A stretch of DNA of 58,392 nt from an uncultured Planctomycetia bacterium (GTDB taxonomy: Bacteria > Planctomycetota > Phycisphaerae > FEN-1346 > JAACEH01). The stretch covers positions 1-58,392 of the forward strand of contig CAIYVX010000019.1 of NCBI GenBank assembly GCA_903929765.1. The letters run 5' to 3'. Made by a program: the position numbers and the translations under genes. Each line of letters starts with the position of its first letter. The stretch's first letter is position 1. The notes under the pieces were generated by a model. The model was not told the DNA's origin and searched no databases. It saw only the letters and a program-made list of their open reading frames with translations. Shown piece by piece: positions 16,736 through 58,392 of this stretch.

Positions 16736-16850
16736 GTGCCACGGGCGGCTTGACCGACCGTGTGCTTGTCATGGGTGCTGCGCGAACATGGCGGCAAACA
16801 CCGCCGCCATGCCACCCGTCGCCCACACTCAATCGTGAAGTGCTCTAGGG
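16736..16850. repeat. Hairpins between converging genes, including an F-like repeat
   Basis: CATGGCGGC and GCCGCCATG (16788-16812) form a nine-base stem. On the minus strand it begins GGGTGGCATGG, matching the family F repeats at 45675 and 53648. The gap separates the GT2 gene from the converging membrane-protein array and may stop transcription from both sides. Confidence 0.6.
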
Positions 16851-18491
16851 CGAGGTTCGGTGGTAGAGAATCCAGAGTGCATTTTCGTTGACGCGCGAGA
16901 AATGACTTTCGAAGTAGGCTTTTCGGTCAGGTCGGCTCATGGCCCCGATCCAATCGTAGTCATTTTTTTTGTATTTAAGAATCCACTGGGTGTCTTCCAG
17001 GAAAGAGGGCACCAGGAAGGGGTGGCGTTCGGGGGGGACGATCGACCAGAGGAGACTGGTGACGATGCTGCCCCGGGCTGGCGGATTGCCCACCATGTGG
17101 TTAAACGGCGCGATCTCGCAGGCGCAAATCCAAAGCACTTCATTGTGCGGCACATGAGCGGCGTGCAGGAGGTCCATCCCCTCCAGCACCAGATCTTTGT
17201 ACTCAGGGTCGTTGTAGTACTTTAAAGCGGCGAGGCCTTCGGCGTCTGTCTCCGGGGCACGATGACCGGCGGGGAGTTCCTTCGTTGGCACGAAGGTCTT
17301 CACCGTCATGTGCAGAAAGGCTCGGCTCAGCAGGCAGTTCTTCGGTTCCGTGGCCAGGAGCATCACCGCGATAAGCAGGGCGCAATAGAGGCCGAGGCGG
17401 CTGAGCGTCGCCTTCTTTTCCTGGGCGGTTCTGGCGGCAAAAAGGACGGCGGCCAGGGGGACCACGCCGAGGAACGGGATATTCTCCAGTTGCTGGCAGG
17501 AGGAGGAGGTGCCCAAAAGAAAGGCCCCCATGGAGACGAGGCTGAAGAGGCCCAACTGCAGAAGGCGCCGGAACGGCGCCGCACATTGGTGGGCGAAGAC
17601 CAGGGCAATCAGGACGGCCACGCCGGCCGCGCTCCAGGTATGGGTGAACTGGATATACCTGAGGGGAATCAAGAAGGTATTGATGTCGCTGCCGAAGTCG
17701 CTGGTCAGGAGGCTGAGGTAGGGTCGCCACCCGCCGCCCGGCTCGGACAAGGCCATCGCCAGGAGCGCGAAGAGAACCAGGCCGATCAGGCCCCAAAAAC
17801 GCTTCTCTCCGGGCCGGGGCCAGAGGCACCGGATCAGAACGTAGGCCACGACCGCGCCGACCGCGAACCAGGCCTTGACCGAGAAGGCCACGGCCAGGGC
17901 CAACGCTTCCAGGAACACGTCGCCGCAGAAGCCGGCGGTCGTAGGCTTTTGCCGTGGGATGAGGATCGAGAGGAAGAACGCCGCCAGGGCCACGTAACAG
18001 ATCGCGTTGTAATACATGGCGTAGCCGAACTCTCTCCAGGTCATGTCTCCCAGCGGGGTAGCCGTGATCAGCAGGAGTTCGGCGGCGGCCAGAAAGAGGA
18101 GCGACCAGACCAGGCGAAGCCGCGGCAGGGCGACCAGGTAGAGGAGCAGACCCAGAAAGACGGCGAAGATGCCCTGGGCCCAATGCAGGGCCACCGGCGA
18201 GGCGGAGTCAGAGAGACGGATGCCCACAGCCACGAGCCAGACGTACAACGGTCCCCAATGCGAGGCAATGAAGTCGACGTTGAGTCGGTGGCCGTGGAGA
18301 ACGCGATTGCCGGCCTCAACATGCCCGATGGTATCCTGGAGAAAGAGGGTCGAGGCGACCGGCCCCGTGGCCCAGAGCAGCAGGAGGACGGCGCCAGTGA
18401 CCAGGAACCAGCCGCCGGCGGCCTTCCAGAACGATATGGCTTCGGGCAGTTGCAGCGAGTCCCAGAGCGATTTTTCAGCGCGACTGATCAT
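16845..18491 (-). CDS. GT-C-like membrane protein, tandem copy 1
   Basis: 548 residues and about ten membrane spans, with a soluble C-terminal third. The first loop holds DTIGHVEAGNRVLHG, then FIASHWGPLYVWL, the acidic-residue and gly-pro-leu pattern of GT-C glycosyltransferases, which take sugars from polyprenyl-phosphate carriers. The family is not one I can name. The C-terminal domain ends with DRKAYFESHFSRVNENALWILYHRT, shared by all three copies. Copy 1 is the most diverged of the three. AAGGCGAAAAGGA precedes the start, as in copy 2. Confidence 0.75.
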   Translation of the reverse strand: MISRAEKSLWDSLQLPEAISFWKAAGGWFLVTGAVLLLLWATGPVASTLFLQDTIGHVEAGNRVLHGHRLNVDFIASHWGPLYVWLVAVGIRLSDSASPVALHWAQGIFAVFLGLLLYLVALPRLRLVWSLLFLAAAELLLITATPLGDMTWREFGYAMYYNAICYVALAAFFLSILIPRQKPTTAGFCGDVFLEALALAVAFSVKAWFAVGAVVAYVLIRCLWPRPGEKRFWGLIGLVLFALLAMALSEPGGGWRPYLSLLTSDFGSDINTFLIPLRYIQFTHTWSAAGVAVLIALVFAHQCAAPFRRLLQLGLFSLVSMGAFLLGTSSSCQQLENIPFLGVVPLAAVLFAARTAQEKKATLSRLGLYCALLIAVMLLATEPKNCLLSRAFLHMTVKTFVPTKELPAGHRAPETDAEGLAALKYYNDPEYKDLVLEGMDLLHAAHVPHNEVLWICACEIAPFNHMVGNPPARGSIVTSLLWSIVPPERHPFLVPSFLEDTQWILKYKKNDYDWIGAMSRPDRKAYFESHFSRVNENALWILYHRTSP

Positions 18492-18606
18492 TCCTTTTCG
18501 CCTTTACTCGACCTACCCTGTTATTCTGCCGGACTTTTTTCTAAATCGATCCACCTGGCGTTATATCGACACGGCGCCCCTCGTGTCTATCCTAAAACCC
18601 GGCGCT

Positions 18607-20256
18607 CTATGGCGCGGTTCGGTGGTAGAGAATCCAGCGCTCATTTTCGCCGACTTGGGCGAAATGGGACTCGAAGTAGGCTTTCCGATCGGGCCGGCAC
18701 ATGACCACTTGCCAGTCGAAGGCAAGTTCCTTAATTTTCAGAACCCACTGCGTATCTTCCATGAAGGAAGAAGGCCGCAAGAGGGGGTGCCGCGCGGGCG
18801 GAAGGCCCGCATTGACGAGACAGAAGACAATGCTGCCCTTGGGCGGCGGATTACCGACGATGTGGTTAAACTGGCCGTAATCGGTGTCAATCCAGAGGAC
18901 TTCCGTCTGTGGAACTTTGGCGGTCCGGAGGAGATCGATCCCAAAGAGCAGATTTTTCCGGAAGTCCTTGTCGATGTCGTTGTAGTACTTCAAAAACACG
19001 GGGTCGGTGGCGGCGATCCTTGGGTCCACCTGGCTATCTTCTAACTTGGCCGTGTGGTAGGTCTTGACCGACAGATTCAGGAAAGTCCGGCTCAGTAAGC
19101 TATTTTTCGGATCCTGGGCCAAAAGAAGCACGGCGATGAGCAGGGCGGCATAGAGTCCGAGGCGTTCCAGGGGCGTCTTCTGATCCCCGGCGGTTCTGGC
19201 CGCGAACAGGACGGACGCCAGAGGCACCACGCCCAGGAACGGGATGGTGTCCAGATTCTGCGCCGACGAGCTGGTGCCCAGCATAAAAGCCCCCGTGGCC
19301 GCGAGGCTATAGAGGCCCATTTGCAGCAGTCGTCTCCACGGCATGGCACAGTAGTGGGCGAAGAGCAGGGCGATCAGGACGGCCAGGAGCGCCGTACTCC
19401 ACGTTCGTGATAATGGTAAAAACCTCATGGGCAGCAAGACCGGATTGATATTGGAGCCCGCGGCGCTTTTCAGGATGCTCAGGTAGGGCCGCCACCCGCC
19501 GCCCGGCTCGGACAGAGCCACGGCCAGGACGGCGAAGAGGGCCAGGCCGATCAGGCCCCAGAAGCGTTTCTCGCCGGGCCGGGGCCAGAGGCACCGGATC
19601 AGGACATAGGCGGGCAGGGCGCCGAAGGCGAACCAGGCCTTGAGCGAGAACAGCAGGGCCAGCGAGAAGCTTTCCAACAGGACGTCGCACCAGCAGCCGG
19701 CCAGGGTGGATTCGCGGCGCGGGATCAAAAGGGAAACGAACAGGGCGGCCAGCGGGACGAAGCACATGGCGTTGTAATACATGGCATAGCTGAACTCGCT
19801 CCAGACGGTCCGTCCCAGCGGGGTGGACAGGATCAGCAGCAAGTCGGCCGCCAGGAGCAGGAACAGGGCCCAAGGAAGGCGGAGTCGCGGCAGGGCGACC
19901 AGGTAGAGGAGCGTGCCCAAAAAGATGACGGCGAGGGCCTGGGCCCAATGCAGGGCCAGCGGCGAAGCGGAGCCCGAGAGACGGATGCCCACGGCCACGA
20001 GCCAGACGTACAACGGTCCCCAATGCGAGGCAATGAAGTCGACGTTGAGTCGCTGGCCGTGGAGAACGCGATTGCCGGCCTCGACATGGCCGATGGTGTC
20101 GAAAGAAAATAGGTTAGAAACAATCGGCCCCGTGACCCAGAGCAGCAGCAGGACGGCGCCGGTGACCAGAATCCAGCCGCCGGCAGCTTTCAGAAACGAA
20201 ATGCTCTCGGGCGGTTGCAGCGAGTCCCAAAGCGATTTTTCGGCGCGACTGCTCAT
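18607..20256 (-). CDS. GT-C-like membrane protein, tandem copy 2
   Basis: 549 residues, the same architecture as copies 1 and 3 (first-loop DTIGHVEAGNRVLHGQ and FIASHWGPLYVWL, then about ten spans). It is closest to copy 3: long stretches such as the region around WPRPGEKRFWGLIGLALFAV and the C-terminal AKVPQTEVLWID are nearly identical. The intergenic DNA before it repeats that of copy 1 and copy 3, so whole gene-plus-spacer units were duplicated. Function is inferred as in copy 1. Confidence 0.75.
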   Translation of the reverse strand: MSSRAEKSLWDSLQPPESISFLKAAGGWILVTGAVLLLLWVTGPIVSNLFSFDTIGHVEAGNRVLHGQRLNVDFIASHWGPLYVWLVAVGIRLSGSASPLALHWAQALAVIFLGTLLYLVALPRLRLPWALFLLLAADLLLILSTPLGRTVWSEFSYAMYYNAMCFVPLAALFVSLLIPRRESTLAGCWCDVLLESFSLALLFSLKAWFAFGALPAYVLIRCLWPRPGEKRFWGLIGLALFAVLAVALSEPGGGWRPYLSILKSAAGSNINPVLLPMRFLPLSRTWSTALLAVLIALLFAHYCAMPWRRLLQMGLYSLAATGAFMLGTSSSAQNLDTIPFLGVVPLASVLFAARTAGDQKTPLERLGLYAALLIAVLLLAQDPKNSLLSRTFLNLSVKTYHTAKLEDSQVDPRIAATDPVFLKYYNDIDKDFRKNLLFGIDLLRTAKVPQTEVLWIDTDYGQFNHIVGNPPPKGSIVFCLVNAGLPPARHPLLRPSSFMEDTQWVLKIKELAFDWQVVMCRPDRKAYFESHFAQVGENERWILYHRTAP

Positions 20257-20375
20257 TCCTTTTCGCCTTTACTCGGCCTACACTGTCAGGCCACCGGACC
20301 ATTCAACCTCATACGACCATCGTGTCAAAATAACAGTGCCACGGCGACACTGGCGTCTATCCCAAACCCGGCGCT

Positions 20376-22019
20376 CTAGGGCGCGGTGCGGTGGTAAAGA
20401 ATCCAACGCTCATTTTCGCCGACTTGGGCGAAATGGGACTCGAAGTAGGCTTTCCGGTCGGGCCGGCTAAAGGCCACCAACCCCATGTAATCGAAGTTCT
20501 TATTGTCCAGAATCCACTGCGTATCTTCCATGAAGGAAGAAGGCTGCAGGAGGATGTGCTGCGCGGGCTGGAGGGCCGTGTAGACGAGACAGAGGACAAT
20601 GCTGCCCTTGGGCGGCGGATTGCCGACGATGTGGTTAAACTGGCTGTAATCGGAGTCAATCCAGAGGACTTCCGTCTGCGGCACTTTGGCGGTCCGGAGG
20701 AGATCAAGCCCCAACAGCACATTTTTCCGGAAGTCCGGGTCATTGTAGTACTTCAAGGACGCGCTATCGGCGGCGGAGATATTTGTCTCCGCTTGGCGGG
20801 CTTCCGCCCTGACCGAGGCGAAGCTCCTGACCTGGACCTTCAGGAAGGTCCGGCTGAGGAAGCTATTTTTCGGATCCTGGGCCAAAAGAAGCACGACGCT
20901 GAACAGGGCGGCATAGAGTCCGAGGCGTTCCAGGAGCGTCTTTTGTTCCCGGGCGGTTCTGGCCGCAAACAGGACGGTCGCCAGAGGCGCCACGCCCATG
21001 AGCGGCAGGGTATCCAGATTTTGCGCGGACGAGGCGGTGCCCAGCATAAAAGCCCCCATGGCCGCGAGGCTATAGAGGCCCATCTGGAGCAGGCGCCGCC
21101 AGGGCAGGGCACATTGGCGGGCGAAGACCAGGGCCAGCAGGACGGCCAGGAGCGCCACGCTCCAGGTTCGTGAAAATTGTATATATCTCATGGGCAGCAA
21201 GGCCGGATTGACGCCACACTCTCTGGCGCTGTTCAGGAGGGCCAGGTACGGTCGCAAGCCGCCCCCCGGCGCTGACAGGACCGCGGTCAGGACGGCGAAG
21301 AGGGCCAGACCGATCAAGCCCCAGAAACGTTTCTCGCCGGGCCGGGGCCAGAGGCAACGGATCAGGACATAGCCGGGCAGCGCGCCGACCGCGTACCAGG
21401 CCTTGAGCGAGAACAGCAGGGCCAGCAACAAGCCTTCCAACAGGACGTCGCACCAGCGGCCGGCCGGGGTGGATTCGCGGCGCGGGATCAAAAGGGAGAC
21501 GAACAGGGCGGCCAGCGGGACGAAGCACATGACGTTGTAATACATGGCGTAGCCGAATTCGTGCCAGACGGCGCGTCCCAGCGGCGTGGCCAGGATCAGC
21601 AGCAAGTCGGCCGCAAGGAGCAGGAACAAGGCCCAAGTAAGCCGGAGCCGCGGCAGGGCGACCAGGTAGAGGAGCGTGCCCAAAAAGATGACGGAGAGGG
21701 CCTGGAGCCAATGATGTGCCAGCGGCGAGGCGGAGCCCGAGAGACGGATGCCCAAAGCCACGAGCCAGAGGTATAAGGGTCCCCAATGCGAGGCGATGAA
21801 GTCGACGTTGAGTCGCTGGCCGTGGAGAATGCGATTGCCGGACTCAACATGGCCGAGGGTATCGTCGGGAAAGATGTTCGAGGGGACCGGACCCGTGACC
21901 CAGAGCAGCAGGAGGACGGCGCCGGTGACCAGGATCCAGCCGCCGGCGGCCTTCGGGAACGATATTCTTTCGGGCGGTTGAAGCGAGTCCCAGAGCGATT
22001 TTTCAGCGTGCCAGGCCAT
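20376..22019 (-). CDS. GT-C-like membrane protein, tandem copy 3
   Basis: 547 residues. The frame is open to 22199, but homology to the other two copies begins at AWHAEKSLWDSLQ, so the ATG at 22017-22019 is chosen; AAGGC lies upstream as in its paralogs. The first loop reads DTLGHVESGNRILHGQ and FIASHWGPLYLWL. Divergence from copy 2 is concentrated in an extracytoplasmic segment near residues 400-430, which may reflect a different sugar or acceptor. It is the promoter-proximal copy: a possible promoter at 22119-22148 would read all three. Confidence 0.75.
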   Translation of the reverse strand: MAWHAEKSLWDSLQPPERISFPKAAGGWILVTGAVLLLLWVTGPVPSNIFPDDTLGHVESGNRILHGQRLNVDFIASHWGPLYLWLVALGIRLSGSASPLAHHWLQALSVIFLGTLLYLVALPRLRLTWALFLLLAADLLLILATPLGRAVWHEFGYAMYYNVMCFVPLAALFVSLLIPRRESTPAGRWCDVLLEGLLLALLFSLKAWYAVGALPGYVLIRCLWPRPGEKRFWGLIGLALFAVLTAVLSAPGGGLRPYLALLNSARECGVNPALLPMRYIQFSRTWSVALLAVLLALVFARQCALPWRRLLQMGLYSLAAMGAFMLGTASSAQNLDTLPLMGVAPLATVLFAARTAREQKTLLERLGLYAALFSVVLLLAQDPKNSFLSRTFLKVQVRSFASVRAEARQAETNISAADSASLKYYNDPDFRKNVLLGLDLLRTAKVPQTEVLWIDSDYSQFNHIVGNPPPKGSIVLCLVYTALQPAQHILLQPSSFMEDTQWILDNKNFDYMGLVAFSRPDRKAYFESHFAQVGENERWILYHRTAP

Positions 22020-56419: not shown

Positions 56420-58392
56420 ATGACCACCCCCGCCATGCGTCAATATAAGGAACTCAAACTCCGCTACCCGGACACCATCCTCTTTTTCCGCATGGGCGAC
56501 TTCTACGAAATGTTCTACGAAGACGCCCGCACCGCCTCCAAAGTCCTCGGCCTCGCCCTCACCTCACGCTCCAAGGGCGACGACGCCGTTCCACTCGCCG
56601 GCGTCCCCTACCACGCCATCGACTCCTACCTCGCCAAAATGATCCGCGCCGGTTTCCGCGTCGCCATCTGCGAACAGATGGAAGACCCCAAAAAGGCCAC
56701 CGGCCTCGTCGCCCGCGACGTCGTCCGCGTCGTCACACCCGGCACCCTCACCGACGAAACCCTTCTCGACGACCGCCGCTCCAACTACCTCGCCGCCGTT
56801 TTGCCCCCGGCCGAAAATTCAAAATCCGGCGACCAGGCCGGCCTCGCCTGGGTCGAACTTTCCACCGGCAAATTCTTCTGCGAAGACGCCTCCTTCGCCG
56901 CCGTTTGCGACGAACTCGCCCGCCTCGGCGTCGCCGAATGCCTCCTCCCCGAAGACTTTCTCTCCGGCGTCGAATCACCCGACCTGCGCCGCCTGCGCAG
57001 CGCCGCCGGTTCGCCCCTGGTGAAGCGCCCGCCCTACGTCTTCGACGCCGACGACGCCACGCGCCGCCTCACCGCCCATTTCGCCCTCGCCACGCTCGAC
57101 GGCTTCGGCCTCGCCGACGTGCCGCGCGGCACCCGCGCCGCCGGTGCCATATTGCAATATCTCGAAGAAACCCAGAAGACCGCCCTCGGCCACATCCGCC
57201 GCCTCGCCGCCGTCCGCCGCGGCCGCTACCTCTACCTCGACGAAGCCACCGTCCGCAGCCTCGAACTCTCCCGCACCATTCGCGGCGAATCCCAGGAACA
57301 CACCCTCCTCGGCGTCCTCGACCGCACCCGCTCCCCCATGGGCGCCCGCCTCGTCCGCTCCTGGCTCCAGTTCCCCCTCGCCGACGTCGAACGTATCAAC
57401 GCCCGCCTCGAAGCCGTCGAAGAGCTTGTCGCCGCCCGCGAATCCCGCGACGACCTCGCCGCCCGACTCGACGACCTCGCCGACCTCGAACGCATCGTCG
57501 CCCGCGTCGCCGTCAACCGCGCCGGACCACGCGACCTCCTCTCCCTCTGCCGCAGCCTCGCCCAACTCCCCGCCATCAAAGCCCGCCTCGCCGGCTGCAA
57601 ATCTGCCCGCCTCGCCACCCTCGAGCGCCGCATCGAACTCCTCCCCGACCTCCGCGACCTCCTCGAAAAATCCATCGCCGAAGACGCCCCCGCCCTCCTC
57701 CGCGAGGGCGGCGTCATCCGCCCCGGCTACGATGCCGAACTCGACCGCCTCCGCGACATCCGTTCCGGCGGCGCCCGCTGGCTCGCCGAATACCAGGTCA
57801 AGGAAGTCGCCCGCACCGGCATTAAAACCCTCCGCGTCGGCTTCAACGCCGTCTTCGGCTACTACCTCGAAATCACCAACGCCCACGCCGAAAAAGTCCC
57901 CGTCGAATACACGCGCAAACAAACTTTGAAGAATGCCGAACGCTACATCACCCCCGAATTGAAAGATCACGAAGTCGAAGTCCTCAGCGCCGAAGAAAAG
58001 TCCCTCGCCCGCGAAGACGAACTCTTCCAGCAGATCCGCGCCCGCGTCGCCGAGTTCACCGCCGCCCTCCAATCCGTCTCCGACGCCCTCGCCGAAACCG
58101 ATGTCCTCACCACCTTCGCCGACCTCGCCGTCCGCCTCCGCTGGACCAAGCCCGAGGTCAACGACTCTCTCGTCCTCGAACTCCACGACGCCCGCCACCC
58201 CGTCCTCGACGCCGTCCTCGGCTCCGACTTCGTCCCCAACGATTGTCTTCTAGGTTCCGGGGGTGCCACACTTTGTCCCGGCGGGCTGTCTCGCCGGGCA
58301 AAGTGTGTTAACGCTGCGGATGAGGGTCCTCTTCTTCACCCCTCTCCCTTGGGAGAGGGTGCCGCTTTAGCGGCGGGTGAGGGGTTGAGGCC
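56420..58392 (+). CDS. mutS: DNA mismatch repair protein MutS (3' partial, with in-frame repeats)
   Basis: Residues 1-611 are ordinary MutS: the mismatch-reading F-x-E in MGDFYEMF (F28, E30), LPLAGVPYHAIDSYLAKMI-like connector, lever and clamp helices, GFNAVFGYYLEITNAHAEKVP, and LHDARHPVLD...SDFVPND at 607-608. Here the Walker A region should follow within about 15 residues. Instead, from residue 612 on the frame reads through a family B repeat (58259-58309) and then a family C repeat (58336-58391), still open at the window end. Either MutS carries a repeat-coded insertion before its ATPase domain, or the gene is broken, or the contig end is chimeric. No ribosome-binding site is seen. Confidence 0.9.
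   Translation, partial: MTTPAMRQYKELKLRYPDTILFFRMGDFYEMFYEDARTASKVLGLALTSRSKGDDAVPLAGVPYHAIDSYLAKMIRAGFRVAICEQMEDPKKATGLVARDVVRVVTPGTLTDETLLDDRRSNYLAAVLPPAENSKSGDQAGLAWVELSTGKFFCEDASFAAVCDELARLGVAECLLPEDFLSGVESPDLRRLRSAAGSPLVKRPPYVFDADDATRRLTAHFALATLDGFGLADVPRGTRAAGAILQYLEETQKTALGHIRRLAAVRRGRYLYLDEATVRSLELSRTIRGESQEHTLLGVLDRTRSPMGARLVRSWLQFPLADVERINARLEAVEELVAARESRDDLAARLDDLADLERIVARVAVNRAGPRDLLSLCRSLAQLPAIKARLAGCKSARLATLERRIELLPDLRDLLEKSIAEDAPALLREGGVIRPGYDAELDRLRDIRSGGARWLAEYQVKEVARTGIKTLRVGFNAVFGYYLEITNAHAEKVPVEYTRKQTLKNAERYITPELKDHEVEVLSAEEKSLAREDELFQQIRARVAEFTAALQSVSDALAETDVLTTFADLAVRLRWTKPEVNDSLVLELHDARHPVLDAVLGSDFVPNDCLLGSGGATLCPGGLSRRAKCVNAADEGPLLHPSPLGEGAALAAGEGLR
58259..58392. repeat. 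Families B and C at the window end, in frame with mutS
   Basis: GGGTGCCACACTTTG...CCGGGCAAAGTGTG (B), then CCCTCTCCCTTGGGAGAGGG...GGCGGGTGAGGGG (C). Repeats at a contig end are also where assemblies break. Confidence 0.85.

Follow-up and report, generated by a model that had tools for sequence, protein, structure and literature searches.

Palindromic elements in frame at the pre-ATPase loop of a planctomycete mutS: a probable tolerated insertion at a contig break

The mutS gene at the end of a contig from an uncultured Planctomycetia bacterium runs without a stop into two palindromic elements, here called B and C, and the most probable explanation (about 0.73 in our estimate) is that these are mobile REP/RPE-like elements lying in frame in a tolerated variable loop of MutS, with the ATPase domain following and the assembly broken at C. 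The window, that is, the whole stretch of 58,392 nucleotides that was analysed, is the entire contig C19 of a draft genome (3.83 Mb, 116 contigs, 96% complete), and because this contig physically ends at the window end, inside mutS, the ATPase half of the gene cannot be read. In the mechanism we propose, the two elements would have inserted between the conserved FVPND motif and the P-loop strand, their translation would form a disordered loop of about 45–50 or more residues, the ATPase domain would resume in frame after C, and the contig would have broken at C where an exact repeat was too long for the assembler. We infer from this reading that the GPNMxGKST motif follows in frame, that the elements are mobile and that mismatch repair still works. 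The open frame, the identities of the elements, the way the loop varies among homologues and the in-frame insertions in other genes of this genome, with empty sites in relatives, all support a loop insertion, whereas the absence of the 3′ part of mutS from every contig, the draft state of the genome and the resemblance of B, linker and C together to the intergenic spacers of this genome count against it.

The mutS frame and the missing ATPase half

The reading frame opens at an ATG at 56420 and extends to the last base of the window. About 608 residues up to FVPND match Pfam MutS_I, MutS_II, MutS_III and MutS_IV, with all of domains I–IV represented, as well as two NCBIfam mutS equivalog models (Table 1). 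The native part is 73% identical to the MutS of a genome of the same family (G001). Judged by MutS, the named relatives closest to this genome are for the most part Planctomycetota. Every one of the 55 residues before the junction that stand in columns invariant across 39 other MutS proteins is retained, and the 608 codons carry no other damage. The earlier note took FVPND for the last ordinary residues; the native protein runs a few residues further, as CLLG(S) (FVPNDCVLS in G001), and because CLLG follows FVPND the start of the repeat shifts to about 58258, a little downstream of where the note had it.

Searching the genome revealed neither a second MutS1 ATPase nor the 3′ part of mutS in any contig of the assembly, the sole MutS_V match being a separate, MutS2-like frame of 796 codons on C83. 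With the ATPase half absent from the assembly, the return into the mutS frame is not seen, and the downstream piece would have to sit on an unbinned contig. Synteny with the genes downstream of mutS in G001 gave no useful neighbour for the continuation in the genome portion compared.

Two other repeats were observed in the window. Positions 16842–21524 hold three direct repeats of about 1.77 kb, probably paralogous genes or gene parts, and positions 1–69 share about 60–66 bp (GGGGGTGTAAAATCCTTTCTGTAAATTGATC..) with the starts of C1 and C23 and the end of C38, probably an insertion-sequence end.

Table 1. Features at the 3′ end of the window
Feature	Position	Strand	Basis
mutS, native 5′ part (MutS domains I–IV, clamp, start of domain V), ending FVPNDCLLG(S)	56420..58257	+	Pfam, NCBIfam
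FVPND, the final conserved motif ahead of the variable loop and Walker A	58229..58243	+	sequence, homologues
Palindromic element B, with a hairpin at 58267-58307; translated as SGGATLCPGGLSRRAKCV	58258..58309	+	dispersed copies, fold z -4.8
Linker between B and C, in frame, about NAADEGPLL	58310..58334	+	sequence
Palindromic element C, with outer arms enclosing two inner hairpins; translated as HPSPLGEGAALAAGEGLR	about 58335-58392	+	genome pattern matches, arm covariation, exact-match profile

Elements B and C

Both B and C are true dispersed repeats with many matches across the genome, and the observation with which the analysis began, that mutS reads into a family B and then a family C element without a stop, was borne out: the frame stays open to the contig end, which lies inside the 3′ edge of C. 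Of the six frames, that of mutS alone stays open to the end of the tail. Element B is a near-perfect hairpin whose variants preserve pairing (CACACTTTG..CAAAGTGTG, CACACCTTG..CAAGGTGTG). In C, the first inner hairpin pairs CCCTCTCCC/GGGAGAGGG, and the second has covarying arms (GCCC..GGGC, GCAC..GTGC, GCCGC..GCGGC). Measured against shuffled sequences, B folds with the score in Table 1 and B and C jointly with z -5.0, while C alone reaches only z -1.5.

The core pattern of C has 258 matches in the genome against 0 for a reversed control, with double counting of a few sites that, as perfect palindromes, match on both strands; the number of C elements is about 250. The same pattern occurs 8 times in G001, the nearest relative, and is absent from most other relatives, and we therefore regard the expansion as lineage-specific.

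The MutS loop as an insertion site

The final strand ahead of the P-loop is joined to GPNMxGKST by a loop of variable length, and the junction lies within this loop. In a set of 99 homologues, 12 residues separate FVPND from TGPNM in 73 and 11 in 15, and G001 MutS too has a short loop that lacks B and C. Long loops nevertheless occur naturally, with 22 residues in L062, 29 in L078, 48 in L086 and 58 in L105, most of these four from Planctomycetota, and L038 has a long one as well. The approximately 45–50 residues added by B, linker and C lie inside the natural range. In L105, the MutS of another Phycisphaeraceae genome, the 58-residue loop is the translation of an inverted repeat (L105:1924-2100), after which the ATPase motifs follow in frame; a search for this repeat in its own genome found the two arms and no further copy. 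The L105 protein as modelled by AlphaFold (39-row alignment, mean pLDDT 84.5) has residues 637–680 disordered, linking the strand 629–633 to the strand 686–690, and the P-loop with Walker A intact at pLDDT 97–98.

The long natural loops and the L105 model indicate that the site is a surface loop and not the hinge between clamp and ATPase. Disruption of a critical hinge, as the earlier note had proposed, is therefore rejected: the position is a variable pre-P-loop loop, 22–58 residues long in some other MutS proteins and disordered in the L105 model. No evidence was found for the mutator strain that might have followed from it. The tolerated loop, which had been offered as the alternative, is favoured by the loop variability, the intact modelled Walker A, the retained invariant residues and the in-frame elements in other genes.

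In-frame copies in other genes

In-frame insertion is common across this genome. Within the genome portion compared, about 122 distinct C copies were examined, and 7 of them lie inside open frames that look coding and extend for 40 codons or more on each side. Six of these seven share the reading phase of the C element in mutS (PSPxGEG...GEGLR); B copies are also found within open frames, in several phases. Pfam identifies the hosts of in-frame B or C as PriA, UvrA, SMC (inside the hinge domain), AsnB, cytochrome b, TauE, a HEAT-repeat protein and a radical SAM/B12 protein, to which are added a sigma-like protein just below the Pfam cut-off and a membrane-like protein without a match. The insert in priA is missing from G001 and other relatives, leaving an empty site, and G001 SMC aligns on both sides of the insert position without the insert. 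As these copies are internal to contigs, they are not artefacts of contig tips.

Further repeat-bearing frames were noted along the way. The SMC hinge (L167:17455-17552) holds B and a second palindrome, and this composite unit recurs at more than 10 places in the genome, some of them in long frames (C108, C2, C105); the SMC hinge loops of the relatives G005 and G002 (L238, L241) are long and look repeat-derived. One C element lies in frame in a ValRS-like ORF of 1274 codons (L168, G000:C82:71200-75300), and a frame of 896 codons carries several in-frame C-type elements (L172, G000:C114:36000-47564).

Why the contig ends, and the competing explanations

An exact 59-base repeat in C (58330-58388) recurs elsewhere in the genome and ends 4 bases before the contig does, and a break at this point is what we would expect of a short-read assembler. 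The general form of this idea, that contigs of this assembly end in repeats, was tried and rejected, since only 6 of 42 sampled contig ends have repeat matches at three places or more, compared with 1 of 40 inner controls; such repeats therefore account for only some of the breaks. As no contig of the assembly supplies the ATPase half, true truncation of mutS and a chimeric contig tip both keep a share of the probability, each being less likely than a loop insertion.

Truncation would mean that a rearrangement or deletion between repeats put intergenic DNA carrying B and C in place of the ATPase half, with loss of ATP binding and of mismatch repair. That no MutS1 ATPase domain is found elsewhere in an assembly 96% complete speaks for it, as do the spacer-like appearance of B and C taken jointly and the capacity of repeats to recombine. 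Against it stands the position of the break, which coincides exactly with the loop of variable length and lies in the sole open frame: a random breakpoint would strike this loop of about 36 bp, in a gene of about 2.6 kb, about 1.4% of the time, and would be expected to meet an open frame in about one case in six. The complete set of invariant residues and the otherwise undamaged codons also argue against truncation, and the contig break in an exact repeat already accounts for the missing part. We consider truncation unlikely.

Improbable too is a chimeric tip, in which the assembler would have fused an intact mutS to repeat DNA from another place. In its favour, the tip is rich in repeats and lies where the contig ends, and its C element has 59 exact bases in common with another place in the genome. 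At the junction of mutS and B, by contrast, the exact repeats begin at 58258 and reach at most 29 bases in B (in the genome portion compared), and the 58 bases 5′ of the junction have no other genome match among the matches listed. Since no genome-repeated sequence crosses this junction, a chimera looks unlikely, and a random join would seldom fall both in the loop and in frame.

Implications

These observations extend in-frame protein-coding palindromic elements to a lineage of GC-rich Planctomycetota in which one family has about 250 copies, and mutS is probably a further repair gene to host them. Insertions of this kind show where proteins tolerate added sequence. They also call for caution, as an intact gene can seem truncated where a contig breaks within repeats of this type. 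A far more speculative proposal, which we hold to be very improbable, is that a lineage-specific burst of palindromes prefers the loops of replication and repair proteins (MutS, UvrA, PriA, SMC), and that the MutS insert weakens mismatch repair, raises the mutation rate and so helps the elements to spread.

Comparison with known palindromic elements

Our literature search found no earlier report of in-frame palindromes in planctomycetes or of inserts in mutS, and three kinds of described elements offer a comparison. The GTAG and CGTC REP superfamilies are small palindromes that occur in hundreds per genome, singly or grouped, and many intragenic REPs are described from DNA synthesis and repair genes of other bacteria, including uvrA, with 20–82 residues encoded in frame; mutS is not among the hosts named in the section consulted (PMC3733652). 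Both GTAG and CGTC are absent from the two strands of 58258-58392, and as they lack these stem-base tags B and C are not placed in these superfamilies. The hosts UvrA, PriA, SMC and MutS may nonetheless recall, by analogy, the bias of intragenic REPs towards repair and replication genes.

Bacterial MITEs such as ERIC, Correia and RUP are non-autonomous, multi-copy inverted-repeat elements that sometimes form in-frame gene fusions (PMC2229807). B and C are likewise inverted-repeat, multi-copy and in frame in genes; unlike MITEs, they come without an identified target-site duplication or cognate transposase.

The closest likeness in features, along with that to the intragenic REPs, is to the Rickettsia palindromic elements (RPE) and the protein-coding palindromes of Wolbachia, which are short, dispersed and found both between genes and in frame inside conserved protein genes (PMC2229807). 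B and C differ from RPE in their GC-rich planctomycete host, in their shorter units (about 50–60 bp) and in the stacking of two families in one loop; the likeness is one of shared features, and the host proteins here are predicted from sequence. As in the RPE-like functional class, B and C are dispersed multi-copy palindromes with copies in frame within conserved protein genes, and the orthologues compared, those of priA, smc and mutS, lack the insert.
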